Source: Arthrobacter sp. H16F315 (lineage in GTDB: Bacteria; Actinomycetota; Actinomycetes; Actinomycetales; Micrococcaceae). From it: DNA of 64,000 nucleotides. The position numbers and the translations under genes are program-made. Location: contig NZ_JAMXSS010000002.1 in NCBI RefSeq assembly GCF_024124825.1, positions 806,001 through 870,000 on the forward strand. Reading direction: 5' to 3'. Below are positions 18,886-24,668 of the stretch, in pieces (the stretch's first letter is position 1; each line of letters starts with the position of its first letter). The notes under the pieces are model-generated. The model was not told the origin of the DNA and searched no databases. It was given only the letters and a program-made list of their open reading frames with translations.

Positions 18886-19950
18886 TTAGGCGGGCGGGCC
18901 GCCGCGAAGGGGTGCATTGGCAAATTCGAGCATGCCTTCGTCAAAGCCCACGGCCGGGGACCAGCCAAGCTCCGTCTTGAGCAGCTCAGAGGACGCCGTG
19001 ACGTGGCGGACGTCGCCCAGCCGGTACTCGCCGGTGACCACCGGCACGGGGCCGGCGCTGAACCGGGACAGAGCGGCGGCAACGTCGCCGATCGTGTGGG
19101 CCTCATCGGCGCCGACGTTGTAGACCCGGAATCCAGCGCCACCACCGGTGCCCAGGGACTCGATGGCGGCGATATTCGCGGCGGCCACATCCCGGACGTG
19201 AATGAAGCTGCGCCGTTGCGCACCGTCTTCGAAGACCCGGGGAGCCTCACCCCGGGCCAAGGCCGAACGGAACAGTGACGCGACGCCGGCGTAGGGCGTA
19301 TCCCGCGGCATCCGCGGTCCGTAGACATTGTGGTAGCGCAGCGCCACCGCTTCGCCGCCTGTGCTTCGCGCCCACGCAGCGGCAAGATGCTCCTGGCTCA
19401 CTTTGGACGCGGCATAGACGTTGCGCGGGTCAAGGGGCGCGTCCTCCGTGACCATCGCCGGGTTCAGCAGGGCGCCGGTCGCCGGGTTGCGGGGATCGTA
19501 GACTCCGGCGCGCAGGTCCGCCTCGGCGCGGGGCCCGGGCCGCACCGGCGCACCGGTCACGGAGTCGGTGTAGGCACCCTCGCCGTAGACCACCATGGAG
19601 GAGGCCAGGACCAGCCGCTGGATACCGCGGCGTTCCATCGCGGCCAGCAGGATCGCCGTCGCGTAGTCGTTGTTGCGGATATAGTCGGGCGCGTCAGCGA
19701 AGCTGACCCCGAGGCCCACTTTCGCACTTTGGTGGCAGACCGTGTCGATGCCGTCCAGCGCACCGTGAACGGCGTCGGGGTCTGTGACGTCTCCGGTCAG
19801 CAACTCCACCCGGGGATCAAACGCCGGCGGTCCTTGATGGAGGCCCGGGTCCAGTGAATCCAGGACCCGCACGGACCAGCCGTTGGCGAGGGCGGCGTCG
19901 ACTATGTGGGAACCGATGAATCCGGCGCCGCCGGTGACAAGGAGCCTCAT
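18886..19950 (-). CDS. NAD-dependent sugar epimerase/dehydratase (GalE-like)
   Basis: 354-aa extended-SDR enzyme acting on a nucleotide-activated sugar. Rossmann motif 'LVTGGAGFIGSHIVDAAL', active-site 'ASSMVVYGEG' and YxxxK in 'NVYAASKVSQEHL', then 'ALRYHNVYGPRMPRDTPYAG' and 'RSFIHVRDVAAANI'. It lies 4 bases after and on the same strand as the MTA phosphorylase gene (their ends overlap), so they are co-transcribed. Pairing of an MTA phosphorylase with a GalE-type epimerase matches Mycobacterium Rv0535-Rv0536 (pnp-galE3). A ribo-to-xylo epimerisation of a methylthio-pentose is a plausible role. Classical UDP-galactose epimerase is the alternative, since the gal operon lacks galE. Confidence 0.85.
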   Translation of the reverse strand: MRLLVTGGAGFIGSHIVDAALANGWSVRVLDSLDPGLHQGPPAFDPRVELLTGDVTDPDAVHGALDGIDTVCHQSAKVGLGVSFADAPDYIRNNDYATAILLAAMERRGIQRLVLASSMVVYGEGAYTDSVTGAPVRPGPRAEADLRAGVYDPRNPATGALLNPAMVTEDAPLDPRNVYAASKVSQEHLAAAWARSTGGEAVALRYHNVYGPRMPRDTPYAGVASLFRSALARGEAPRVFEDGAQRRSFIHVRDVAAANIAAIESLGTGGGAGFRVYNVGADEAHTIGDVAAALSRFSAGPVPVVTGEYRLGDVRHVTASSELLKTELGWSPAVGFDEGMLEFANAPLRGGPPA

Positions 19951-20827
19951 GAGGCGGACACCGCCCGGCGCACAACCGGTAACGCCAGCACACGGTTCAC
20001 CGCCGTCGGATCCATCAGTGGACGGGGGGCATAGTCATCATCGATGGCGGCAATCGTCGCCTCCAGCACAGCCAGGACAGTACCCTGGGCGTTCTTCAGC
20101 CGCGCAAACACGGCGTCGGCGGTGACCGGGTCCGAACCGTCGTGGCCGGTATCCGAGTCCGTAATGAATGCCAGATTCGCGAAGCCCATGTTCAGTTCGG
20201 CGGCGAGGAGGGGTTCGGGGTACTGGGTCATGCTGATGATGTCAGCGCCCCCGCTGACGTACCAGGCGGATTCGGCTTTCGTGGAAAAGCGCGGCCCGTT
20301 GACAACCACCACGGTGCCCTGCAAAACATGGGAGACATCCTGGGCCAGCAGCGCGGTAGCGAGGTGTGCACGCAGTGCCGGGCAGAAGGGCTCCGAGGCC
20401 GGCAGGTGCTGCACGCCGGCCGGCTCGACGCCGTCGGCAACTGTGCCGTCGTAATAGCTATCGGCGCGCCCCCAGGTCCGGTCGATCAGTTGGTCCGTGA
20501 CCACAAACGTCTCCGGCCCGTAGCCCTCGTGCAGGCCGCCCACCGCCGAAGACGATATAACAGCCTCGACGCCAAGGCTTTTTAAAGCCCAGAGGTTGGC
20601 CCGGTAGTTGATCTTCTGGGGCGGGGAGAGTGGCCGCCGCCGTGGCGGGGCAGGAATGCCACGGTCCGTCCGGCCACCTCGGCCAGCGTGATGGGGCCCG
20701 ACGGCGGTCCGTACGGAGTCTCGACGTCGACGGTGTCCTTGACGATTGCGCCAGGGAGCCCGTACGTGCCGGATCCTCCGATTATTCCGATGCGCGCCTG
20801 CGCCGTGCCGGCAAATGATTGTTCCAT
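19947..20827 (-). CDS. mtnP: S-methyl-5'-thioadenosine phosphorylase, frameshifted
   Basis: Phosphorolyses methylthioadenosine to adenine and 5-methylthioribose-1-phosphate; about 293 aa after restoring one base. The N-terminal frame carries 'IGIIGGSGTYGLPG', 'VETPYGPPSGPI' and 'FLPRHGGGH'. The second frame carries 'PPQKINYRANLWALKSLGVE', 'ISSSAVGGLHEGYGPETFVV' and 'MTQYPEPLLAAELNM' with the Asp-containing base-recognition stretch 'ITDSDTGHDG'. The break is at a G4 run on the plus strand (20623-20626). It is coupled to the epimerase gene by a 4-nt overlap. Neighbouring GT2 and DUF2064 genes suggest the methylthioribose product may go into a glycan rather than methionine salvage; no mtnA/B/C genes are present here. 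Confidence 0.86.
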
Positions 20828-21005
20828 ACAACCATCCTGTCACCCGGACGGGAGGTGCCGCGGCGGGCCCGCCGCGTTCAGCGGAGTTTCCCGGCACTGT
20901 CGATGCCGTCCCACGCAGCCTTCTCCGCGGGCCGCGGCTCCATGTTTTCTGGACTCGCAGGGGCCGGCGGCACCGTGGGCGCAGGAATGATGGTGTGATC
21001 TAGCT

Positions 21006-23248: not shown

Positions 23249-23946
23249 CGCAGCGCTCCTTCCAGGGGGCGTGACTTCGGCGCCGGGTCTGCGGCAGTTT
23301 TGGCGGCGTTGTCTACGGCGTGTGCGAAGTCGGTGCCGGGGATCTCCGCCGCGATCTGCAACGCGTCGCTGAAGTAGTCCATGTCCCGGAGTTCGGGGAG
23401 GGTCCCGACGGTAAGCCCGGCGGCGGTCAGCCGGGCGTGCTGCTCGGTTCCGGTGGTGTCGGTGGACATCGGCACGCCGCGGATCAGGGCGCCGTCGGGC
23501 CGGCGCAGGGCCAAGGCCCAGAAGCCGCCGTCGGCGGCCGGGCCGAGCCAAGCGTCGCGGGTTGCCTGCGGGGTGGACCAGTCGCGCAGGAGCGCAGCAA
23601 CGTGGTCCGCGGCGAACTGTGGGGTGTCCATCCCGATAATGAGCAGCGGCCCGGTGGTGGCGTCGCAGATCGCGGCGAGCCGTTCGTCCAGCCCGCCGGT
23701 TACTTGCGGGACGACGGTGTAGCCCGCTGCGTCCGCGGGCGAAGGAGTGCCGTCCATAACCAGGATCCGGTGCCGGACCGGGAGCAGCCGGACGGTCGCC
23801 AGGGTGCGGCTCAGGCTCGCCTGGGCCAGTGCCGCCGCATTTTCGGGGCTCAGGGGCGGGCTCAGCCGGGTTTTGACCCGGCCCGGCACGCACTCTTTGG
23901 CGATGACCGCCACAGTAAGATCCACGCTGTTGTCCATAACCGTCAT
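23245..23946 (-). CDS. DUF2064/TIGR04282 family glycosyl- or nucleotidyltransferase
   Basis: 233-aa protein with a GT-A-like fold. It shows 'VPGRVKTRLSPPLSPENAAA' near the N-terminus and 'LLIIGMDTPQFAADHVAALL' and 'AWLGPAADGGFWALAL' later, all typical of DUF2064. This family accompanies GT2 enzymes in several sugar pathways, including arsenosugar biosynthesis. The Mycobacterium relative is Rv0540. The ATG at 23946 overlaps the GT2 stop by 4 nt. Inferred role: activation or transfer of an unusual pentose. Confidence 0.85.
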   Translation of the reverse strand: MTVMDNSVDLTVAVIAKECVPGRVKTRLSPPLSPENAAALAQASLSRTLATVRLLPVRHRILVMDGTPSPADAAGYTVVPQVTGGLDERLAAICDATTGPLLIIGMDTPQFAADHVAALLRDWSTPQATRDAWLGPAADGGFWALALRRPDGALIRGVPMSTDTTGTEQHARLTAAGLTVGTLPELRDMDYFSDALQIAAEIPGTDFAHAVDNAAKTAADPAPKSRPLEGALR

Positions 23947-24668
23947 TCGTTGCCGGCCGCGCCGCGGACCGGTCCGGACGGCAACACAGCAGAGGCATCG
24001 GTGAGGGCCTTGGCTGCCCGGAGCTGCGCGGACATGTCCTTTACAGCCGTCAGGGTGCCCCGGAGCGTCCCGGTGACCTTCGACTTGCCGGTGCGGGGGG
24101 CGTAGGGGACGGGCAGCTCCACGATCCGCCAACGGCGCAGGCTTGCCTTGAGGAACATCTCCAAGGGATAGCCGCTGCGCCGGTCCGCCAAGCCGAGGGA
24201 AAGCAAACCCTCACGGCGGGCGACCCGCATCGGGCCCAGATCCGTGATCCGTTCCCCGGTCAGGCGTCGGAGCCGCCACGCCAGTACGAGGTTGGCGATG
24301 CGGGCGTGCAGCGGCCAGGAACCGCGCTGGGGCCGGCGGCTACCCAGCACCAGATCCGCAGTACCGTCCAGGACAGGCCCGGCCAGCTCCGGCAGCCCGG
24401 CCGGATCCAGCGAACCGTCGCAATCGCAGAACGCGACAAACTCCGACGTCGCGGCGAGGAGGCCGGCATGCGCGGCGGCGCCGAAACCCTTCCGTGCTTC
24501 ATGGACCACTGTCGCACCCAGGCTGGCTGCGAGTTCGGCGGAGCCGTCGGTGGAGCCGTTGTCCACAACGATTGCCCGGTATCCTTTGGGCAGCCGGGAC
24601 AGCACCCACGGCAGGGCACCGCGCTCGTTCAGACACGGAAGAACAACATCCACCAGGGCTGCGGTCAT
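23943..24668 (-). CDS. Glycosyltransferase family 2 (polyprenyl/dolichyl-phosphate sugar synthase type)
   Basis: 241-aa GT-A glycosyltransferase: 'VVLPCLNERGALPWVLSRLP', 'VVDNGSTDGSAELAASLG', DxD-type 'FCDCDGSLDP' and 'ERITDLGPMRVARREGLL'. No transmembrane helix is visible. The family often makes polyprenyl-phosphate sugars for transfer outside the membrane. Start MTAALVDVV is favoured by AAGG 9 nt upstream; an ATG three codons earlier is possible. First gene of a three-gene operon, comparable to Rv0539 beside Rv0540. Confidence 0.86.
   Translation of the reverse strand: MTAALVDVVLPCLNERGALPWVLSRLPKGYRAIVVDNGSTDGSAELAASLGATVVHEARKGFGAAAHAGLLAATSEFVAFCDCDGSLDPAGLPELAGPVLDGTADLVLGSRRPQRGSWPLHARIANLVLAWRLRRLTGERITDLGPMRVARREGLLSLGLADRRSGYPLEMFLKASLRRWRIVELPVPYAPRTGKSKVTGTLRGTLTAVKDMSAQLRAAKALTDASAVLPSGPVRGAAGNE

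Follow-up and report, generated by a model that had tools for sequence, protein, structure and literature searches.

Can an actinobacterium outside the mycobacteria build a sulfur-containing pentose for its cell envelope? This question is raised by a gene island of Arthrobacter sp. H16F315, whose genome of 4.2 Mb is assembled in five contigs. The window, that is, the whole stretch of DNA that we analysed, spans 64,000 nucleotides (contig NZ_JAMXSS010000002.1, positions 806,001 to 870,000; C2:806001-870000 in our numbering), and a first-pass annotation had proposed a glycan locus of the methylthioxylose (MTX) type at its positions 18886–24668. Whether the MTX modification occurs beyond lipoarabinomannan (LAM) assembly is called unclear in a 2024 PNAS paper (PMC11127046), and our search of the open-licence literature found nothing in print on a methylthio-sugar system outside mycobacteria. 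Judging from the gene content, we consider it probable that the island serves to form a 5-methylthio-pentofuranose and to load it on polyprenyl phosphate, from which a GT-C transferase would then pass it to an envelope glycan; the predicted donor pathway, formed by a methylthioadenosine phosphorylase (MTAP), an epimerase (EPI), a glycosyltransferase (GT2) and a DUF2064 protein, is well supported. The genes suggest an MTX-type modification outside LAM assembly, in many actinomycete families, on plasmids and in environmental strains.

All the genes that the first-pass annotation had named were found where it placed them, although two are interrupted in the assembly. The GT2 gene (23943..24668, reverse strand; PF00535, 69.8 bits) encodes a polyprenyl-phosphate sugar synthase-like relative of MtxS, whose profile matches undecaprenyl- and dolichol-phosphate sugar synthases in the PDB. 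It is separated by 5 nt from the gene of the DUF2064/CofC-like nucleotidyltransferase (23245..23937, reverse; PF09837, 64.9 bits, cut-off 25.8; profile match to PDB 3cgx), which in turn overlaps by 4 nt (GTGA) with that of a class I S-adenosylmethionine-dependent methyltransferase (MT; 22541..23248, reverse; PF13649, 29.4 bits, cut-off 27). At the other end of the island, EPI, a GalE-like SDR of the NAD-dependent epimerase/dehydratase family (18886..19950, reverse; PF01370, 164.4 bits), and the S-methyl-5'-thioadenosine phosphorylase MTAP (19947..20827, reverse) likewise overlap by 4 nt (ATGA). Between these two groups lie a fusion of a cytochrome b561-like membrane domain with a molybdopterin-oxidoreductase domain (b561/MOCO; 21006..22149, forward; PF00174, 89.7 bits), in which the PF01292 match of the b561 part is weak (19.2 bits, under the cut-off of 30.1), and, again with a 4-nt overlap, the small membrane protein TM3 (22146..22586, forward), which the first-pass annotation did not name, which recurs beside MOCO, has about four hydrophobic stretches by eye and matched nothing in Pfam or NCBIfam. 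In the window assembly MTAP is frameshifted near 20624–20633 and b561/MOCO near 21460, and the pieces were searched separately; both MTAP pieces match NCBIfam MTAP models, with scores below the cut-off as pieces. Each of the two is one open gene in a genome of the same species (G208, locus L030), where MTAP, open over its length, reaches 263 bits against a cut-off of 274.85. The window genome has this single MTAP, in two pieces, the sole other match being a 67-bit phosphorylase. The genes are genuine and belong together.

The pathway can be proposed from these genes, which are our basis for each reaction, the order, the membrane side, the product and the acceptor alike. MTAP would convert methylthioadenosine to 5-methylthioribose-1-phosphate, from which the DUF2064 protein would form a nucleotide sugar, and EPI would invert one carbon, turning the ribo into the xylo form or acting at another position. 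GT2 would load the sugar on polyprenyl phosphate and, after flipping, the GT-C of a second island in the same genome would transfer the sugar to a glycan of the envelope, for which a mannan lipoglycan is a plausible candidate. MT and the b561-molybdoenzyme, with TM3 and a lipoprotein encoded at the island's borders, would alter the sugar, our guess being O-methylation and thioether/sulfoxide chemistry.

Does MTAP really belong to this set? Relatives of the window DUF2064 are present in 21 of 245 genomes of the same family, and MTAP in 22, namely in all of these 21 and, as a weak match of 96 bits, in G004. The association is beyond chance, since 21 genomes have both, none has DUF2064 alone and only 1 of the 224 genomes without cluster DUF2064 has MTAP (Fisher p 1.8e-29, kinship ignored). 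In the neighbourhood comparison across the family that the first-pass annotation had suggested, the cluster is kept: MTAP lies inside it in 20/21 (G143 has MTAP on another contig), and MOCO lies within the fetched cluster stretch in 19/21, having not been seen in G216 and G138. A GT-C of the GT87 type is found in 20 of the 21 and is confined, in the family sample, to genomes with the donor module (20/20; Fisher p 1.9e-28 for its association with DUF2064, kinship ignored); the remaining genome, G138 (L053), carries an MtxT-type gene instead. The isomerase gene mtnA was found in 0/21 cluster genomes, the window genome included, which leaves the single MTAP of the window genome without a known mtnA-type salvage partner. 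The argument from absent salvage genes made at first reading thus holds for mtnA, the gene that our result covers, and no second MTAP was found. MptB, of the lipomannan polymerase family, is present in 21/21 cluster genomes, the set to which this count applies, and a mannan acceptor is therefore possible, without the two being linked by it.

To place the island in a broader context, we searched 394 genomes of the class with a GT2 alignment; at E 1e-20 it matched 314 of them, which fall into a strong and a background group. By 'this GT2' we mean the strong group, with a best E ≤ 1.4e-58 (the next value being 1.0e-49), which comprises 164 genomes in a list compiled by hand. In 40 neighbourhoods hand-picked over 15 families, with genes counted up to 8 kb from GT2, DUF2064 is present in 40, EPI in 39, MT in 33, MOCO in 25, MTAP in 22, and a sensor kinase and a regulator in 21 each. 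GT-C is present in 38, being of MtxT type in 26 and of GT87 type in 12; no locus has the two types together, and both are missing from L092 and L101. These counts bear on a simpler explanation, in which MTAP is a mere housekeeping or detoxifying remover of methylthioadenosine and the other genes of the cluster build an ordinary polyprenyl-linked sugar with no relation to it. This would fit the failure to find MTAP at E 1e-35 in 31 of the 164 class genomes that carry this GT2 (133 have it, as do 58 of the 230 other class genomes), and also the location of MTAP near GT2 in just 22 of the 40 loci. Against it, MTAP in the family is confined to cluster genomes bar the one weak match, genomes without the cluster manage without MTAP, and there is no mtnA to consume its product. 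We regard such a housekeeping role as unlikely.

The relation to the mycobacterial cluster, cited in the first-pass annotation as Rv0535–Rv0541c, is borne out by protein identity: the window GT2 is 53–57% identical to that of seven named mycobacterial clusters and EPI 51–54% to that of six, with 41–45% for the MTAP piece (six named loci), 36–40% for DUF2064 (seven) and 51–52% for MOCO (three). A contig scan with the MtxT-type GT-C gave 213 matches, of which the best 80, all named Mycobacterium or Mycolicibacterium, show GT2 in 76, DUF2064 in 75, EPI in 55, MTAP in 53, MT in 12 and MOCO in 10, some of these loci being too short to show every gene. Because MOCO (10) and MT (12) share a locus with the MtxT-type GT-C among these best 80 of 213, both appear to be tied to the same pathway. 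M. tuberculosis itself is not among these named loci, the best 80 of 213 matches; the equivalence with Rv0535–Rv0541c is borne by the gene order and by the named relatives. The short-form mycobacteria-like loci L111, L115 and L118 read menA-MTAP-EPI-two further proteins-GT2-DUF2064-GT-C-menE (menA confirmed in L115 and L118, menE in L118), which we take to be the M. tuberculosis order. In family f11 of our sample, whose rows group with named Mycobacteriaceae, genomes having GT2 match at E 1e-76 to 1e-87, compared with 1e-20 to 1e-49 for background matches. We treat the GT2 and GT-C of the named clusters as the MtxS and MtxT described in PMC8780516.

Like the mycobacterial MTX pathway (MtxS, Rv0539; MtxT, Rv0541c), the window system thus combines homologous, clustered genes for MTAP, a GalE-like epimerase, GT2 and DUF2064, and each has a GT-C. 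It differs in that MT, the b561/molybdoenzyme and TM3 (also present in a minority of mycobacterial loci) and a lipoprotein are added, that the island is bracketed by inverted repeats, and that the GT-C of the window genome is of the GT87 type and located in a second island. We do not class the window genome as a member of the MTX (MtxS/MtxT) pathway, since its GT-C is not of the MtxT type.

Where, then, is the transferase? The window island itself has none, so that of the proposed MTX-like locus the donor half holds, and the transferase lies elsewhere in the genome. A complete arrangement is seen in the same genus, where L031 reads EPI-MTAP-GT-C-b561/MOCO-TM3-MT-DUF2064-GT2. The second island of the window genome (L054, at 2.82 Mb) carries a GT87-type GT-C and a paralogous b561-MOCO-TM3 set, with only short pieces of GT2 and DUF2064. 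This GT-C is frameshifted in the window assembly and open in G208, and it is this same-species version that passes the Pfam GT87 (PF09594) gathering cut-off (53.3 bits against 25). The pathway genes of the same-species genome are split over two islands likewise, and it seems, from the gene content of these two genomes of one species, that the islands lost complementary genes, so that the pathway, if whole, would be divided between both.

An alternative is that the island is decaying in the window genome, the frameshifts in MTAP, b561/MOCO and the second-island GT-C, together with the loss of GT-C from the window island, leaving no functional pathway. The same genes are open in the same-species genome with its equal two-island split, and the fact that the second island has kept the GT-C which the first lacks argues that the pathway is used. 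In addition, galT (window 14513–15555) is apparently frameshifted too, with GalT families matched only by the downstream frame 14914–15555, which suggests sequencing errors, and the window assembly may hold more of them. Decay therefore strikes us as very unlikely, somewhat more so than a housekeeping MTAP.

Profiles of the GT87 and MtxT types show no detectable similarity to each other (hhalign probability 0.1%), and a PDB search with the GT87-type profile returned nothing at E 0.1. When the mycobacterial MtxT type was modelled with AlphaFold from alignment A5 (16 rows), the mean predicted local distance difference test score (pLDDT) was 48. On the GT2 protein tree, counted over the 65 rows with a called GT-C and excluding rows without one, the best tree has five switches of GT-C type, of which well-supported branches require four or more. 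Such repeated exchange suggests that a donor synthase is kept while the transferase is swapped, and hence different acceptors. PimE and MptC are GT87 transferases that use polyprenyl-phosphate-mannose. The cluster GT-C resembles them, the same-species protein exceeding the GT87 cut-off, but its confinement to donor-module genomes sets it apart, and its expected donor is not mannose.

The block is flanked by 860-bp perfect inverted repeats, overlooked in the first-pass annotation, each containing one whole lipoprotein gene (LIPO). The left arm (17876..18735, forward strand) holds LIPO at 18050–18727 with its upstream region, the right arm (24813..25672, reverse strand) the second LIPO at 24821–25498. 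The window genome has four LIPO copies, identical in protein, the other two flanking the second island; LIPO was found in 3 of 31 searched genomes of the genus, the window genome among them. Paired arms are identical wherever pairs were compared, over 860 nt for the window pair, 829 nt for that of L054 and 893 nt for that of an Arthrobacter plasmid, whereas the window arms are 99% identical to those of L054, 97–98% to those of G208 and 86% to those of the plasmid. This pattern of identity within and divergence between islands fits gene conversion as the process by which paired copies would be kept alike. Flipping of the island by its inverted repeat was considered and discarded, since it was unseen among comparable pairs, the orientation being equal in the window and L030 as well as in L054 and L055. 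LIPO stands directly before MOCO in a Rhodococcus plasmid, the Arthrobacter plasmid and the second island, though not in the window island; given this position, it may serve the molybdoenzyme. LIPO relatives also occur up to about 5.5 kb from cluster GT2 in L086, L087, L090 and L106, from three other families, so that LIPO seems to be a functional partner besides being a repeat. A 7.7-kb contig of G644 (L230) is a complete eight-gene island with inverted LIPO ends on both sides. In genus mates the neighbour gene is only about 60% identical.

Among 72,556 plasmid records, 8 match the GT2 at 1e-20. Of the named plasmids, the one that matches the window island most closely (77.5% over 96% of its length) is the conjugative plasmid of Arthrobacter sp. 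U41, a strain from lake water, where all eight genes lie between 893-nt, 100% identical inverted LIPO repeats and both LIPO genes are recorded under one protein accession. On the plasmid of Rhodococcus sp. AQ5-07 the genes run in one direction as LIPO, MOCO, small protein, MT, MtxT-type GT-C, MTAP, EPI, GT2 and DUF2064, the small protein occupying the place of TM3 without a profile match. Beside this cluster (L236, 13713–14183) a protein with a GtrA/DPMS transmembrane domain is encoded, a candidate flippase for the polyprenyl-linked sugar. Kitasatospora NBC_00039 has a cluster with MTAP, and the plasmid of M. abscessus subsp. bolletii 50594 (L235, NC_021278.1) carries an MtxT-type version with no MTAP in the 32.6 kb seen. 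A phage origin of the island was rejected, since a search of 50,697 phage records at E 1e-10 found nothing that matches DUF2064.

The nature of the sugar is challenged by a further alternative, namely that it is a 5-deoxy- or otherwise 5-modified pentose without a methylthio group, the cluster activating a different 5'-modified ribose. MTAP-type enzymes cleave other 5'-modified adenosines too. Moreover, the DUF2064 and GT2 proteins resemble the arsenosugar-named families TIGR04282 (106.6 bits) and TIGR04283 (37.8 bits), in which a DUF2064 protein is likewise paired with a GT2, and some MOCO clusters stand in MTAP-less genomes. Neither score reaches its curated cut-off (134 and 182, respectively), on which ground a plain arsenosugar reading was dismissed; the annotation of the four annotated plasmid stretches lists no arsenic gene (the PLSDB gene tables being incomplete), and the same donor genes join an MtxT-type gene in mycobacteria, where methylthioxylose is known. 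The M. abscessus plasmid protein MASS_RS25515 is annotated as a TIGR04282 arsenosugar glycosyltransferase, a name that is probably misleading here. On balance a different 5-modified pentose seems improbable to us, to about the same degree as a housekeeping MTAP, and the methylthio-pentose reading offers a candidate function for the pair of DUF2064 and GT2, at present annotated in connection with arsenosugars.

What might the molybdoenzyme contribute? MOCO has an Oxidored_molyb domain in which the Cys of the CVEGW motif is invariant (55/55) and, by analogy, presumably the Mo ligand. It shares with MsrPQ and the sulfite oxidase family this domain, the invariant Cys and the pairing with a b-type membrane domain, but it differs from them in its fusion to a b561-like domain, in scores that stay far under all four curated cut-offs (MsrP, SoxC, SorT and SorA) and in its location in a glycan cluster. 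Methylsulfoxy-xylose (MSX), the sulfoxide form, is reported in M. tuberculosis LAM in PMC8531672; since it exists there although short mycobacterial clusters have no MOCO in the locus, MOCO is dispensable for donor synthesis. MOCO does point to an enzyme type that could oxidise or reduce the sulfur of the sugar, and our tentative guess, which we would not put quite at an even chance, is that it acts in thioether/sulfoxide exchange.

Several observations weigh against a methylthio-pentofuranose pathway. The frameshifts and the non-MtxT type of the GT-C are among them, as is the disregard of kinship in both association tests. MOCO reaches only 27.5 bits against MsrP (cut-off 207), and in the PDB the proteins related to it by sequence are sulfite oxidases (the nearest), nitrate reductases and sulfite dehydrogenases. 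The MTAP-less genomes need another source of the sugar or make another sugar. Two of them, G331 and G354, were examined, and their mapped clusters (L104 and L105) contain MOCO and GT-C. Chemical data on a non-mycobacterium were not found in the open-licence literature. With the MTX-dependent antibody S4-20, slow-growing mycobacteria gave a signal, and the result is marked ND for four fast growers and for Gordonia, Nocardia, Rhodococcus and Tsukamurella preparations in PMC6258851, whose abstract states that fast growers and other bacteria lack cross-reactivity; these data fit a different acceptor or an absent sugar and do not decide the matter.

A wider scenario, which we offer as speculative and rather doubtful, is that of a horizontally mobile cassette, framed by inverted LIPO copies, for a redox-switchable sulfur sugar on actinobacterial envelopes. 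The sugar would be made from methylthioadenosine, placed on different acceptors by whichever GT-C was acquired, and given an O-methyl group. A dedicated molybdoenzyme outside the cytoplasm, accompanied by a lipoprotein of its own, would switch it between the thioether and the sulfoxide form, in many cases under two-component control; mycobacterial methylthioxylose would be a stripped-down branch. New here are the bracket of inverted LIPO genes, the GT-C in a second island, its GT87 type and the repeated exchange of GT-C, which is suggested to retarget one donor. An MTX-dependent epitope is used diagnostically as specific for the M. tuberculosis complex, as stated in PMC6258851, and it therefore matters to know which other organisms can make the donor.

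Two further features were observed. A DUF2064 gene lies near radical SAM, phosphonate-binding-like and acyl-CoA dehydrogenase-like genes in L032 (9576–14745), L051 and L052, and near a radical SAM family without the other two in L044, with GT2 nearby in some of these four; such loci are possibly a sister pathway with another sugar. Lastly, in L033, L036, L037, L040, L041 and L043 the sensor kinase and EPI genes are separated by one more molybdopterin oxidoreductase gene, smaller than the first and with weaker profile matches (70–75 bits), the L036 copy matching PF00174.

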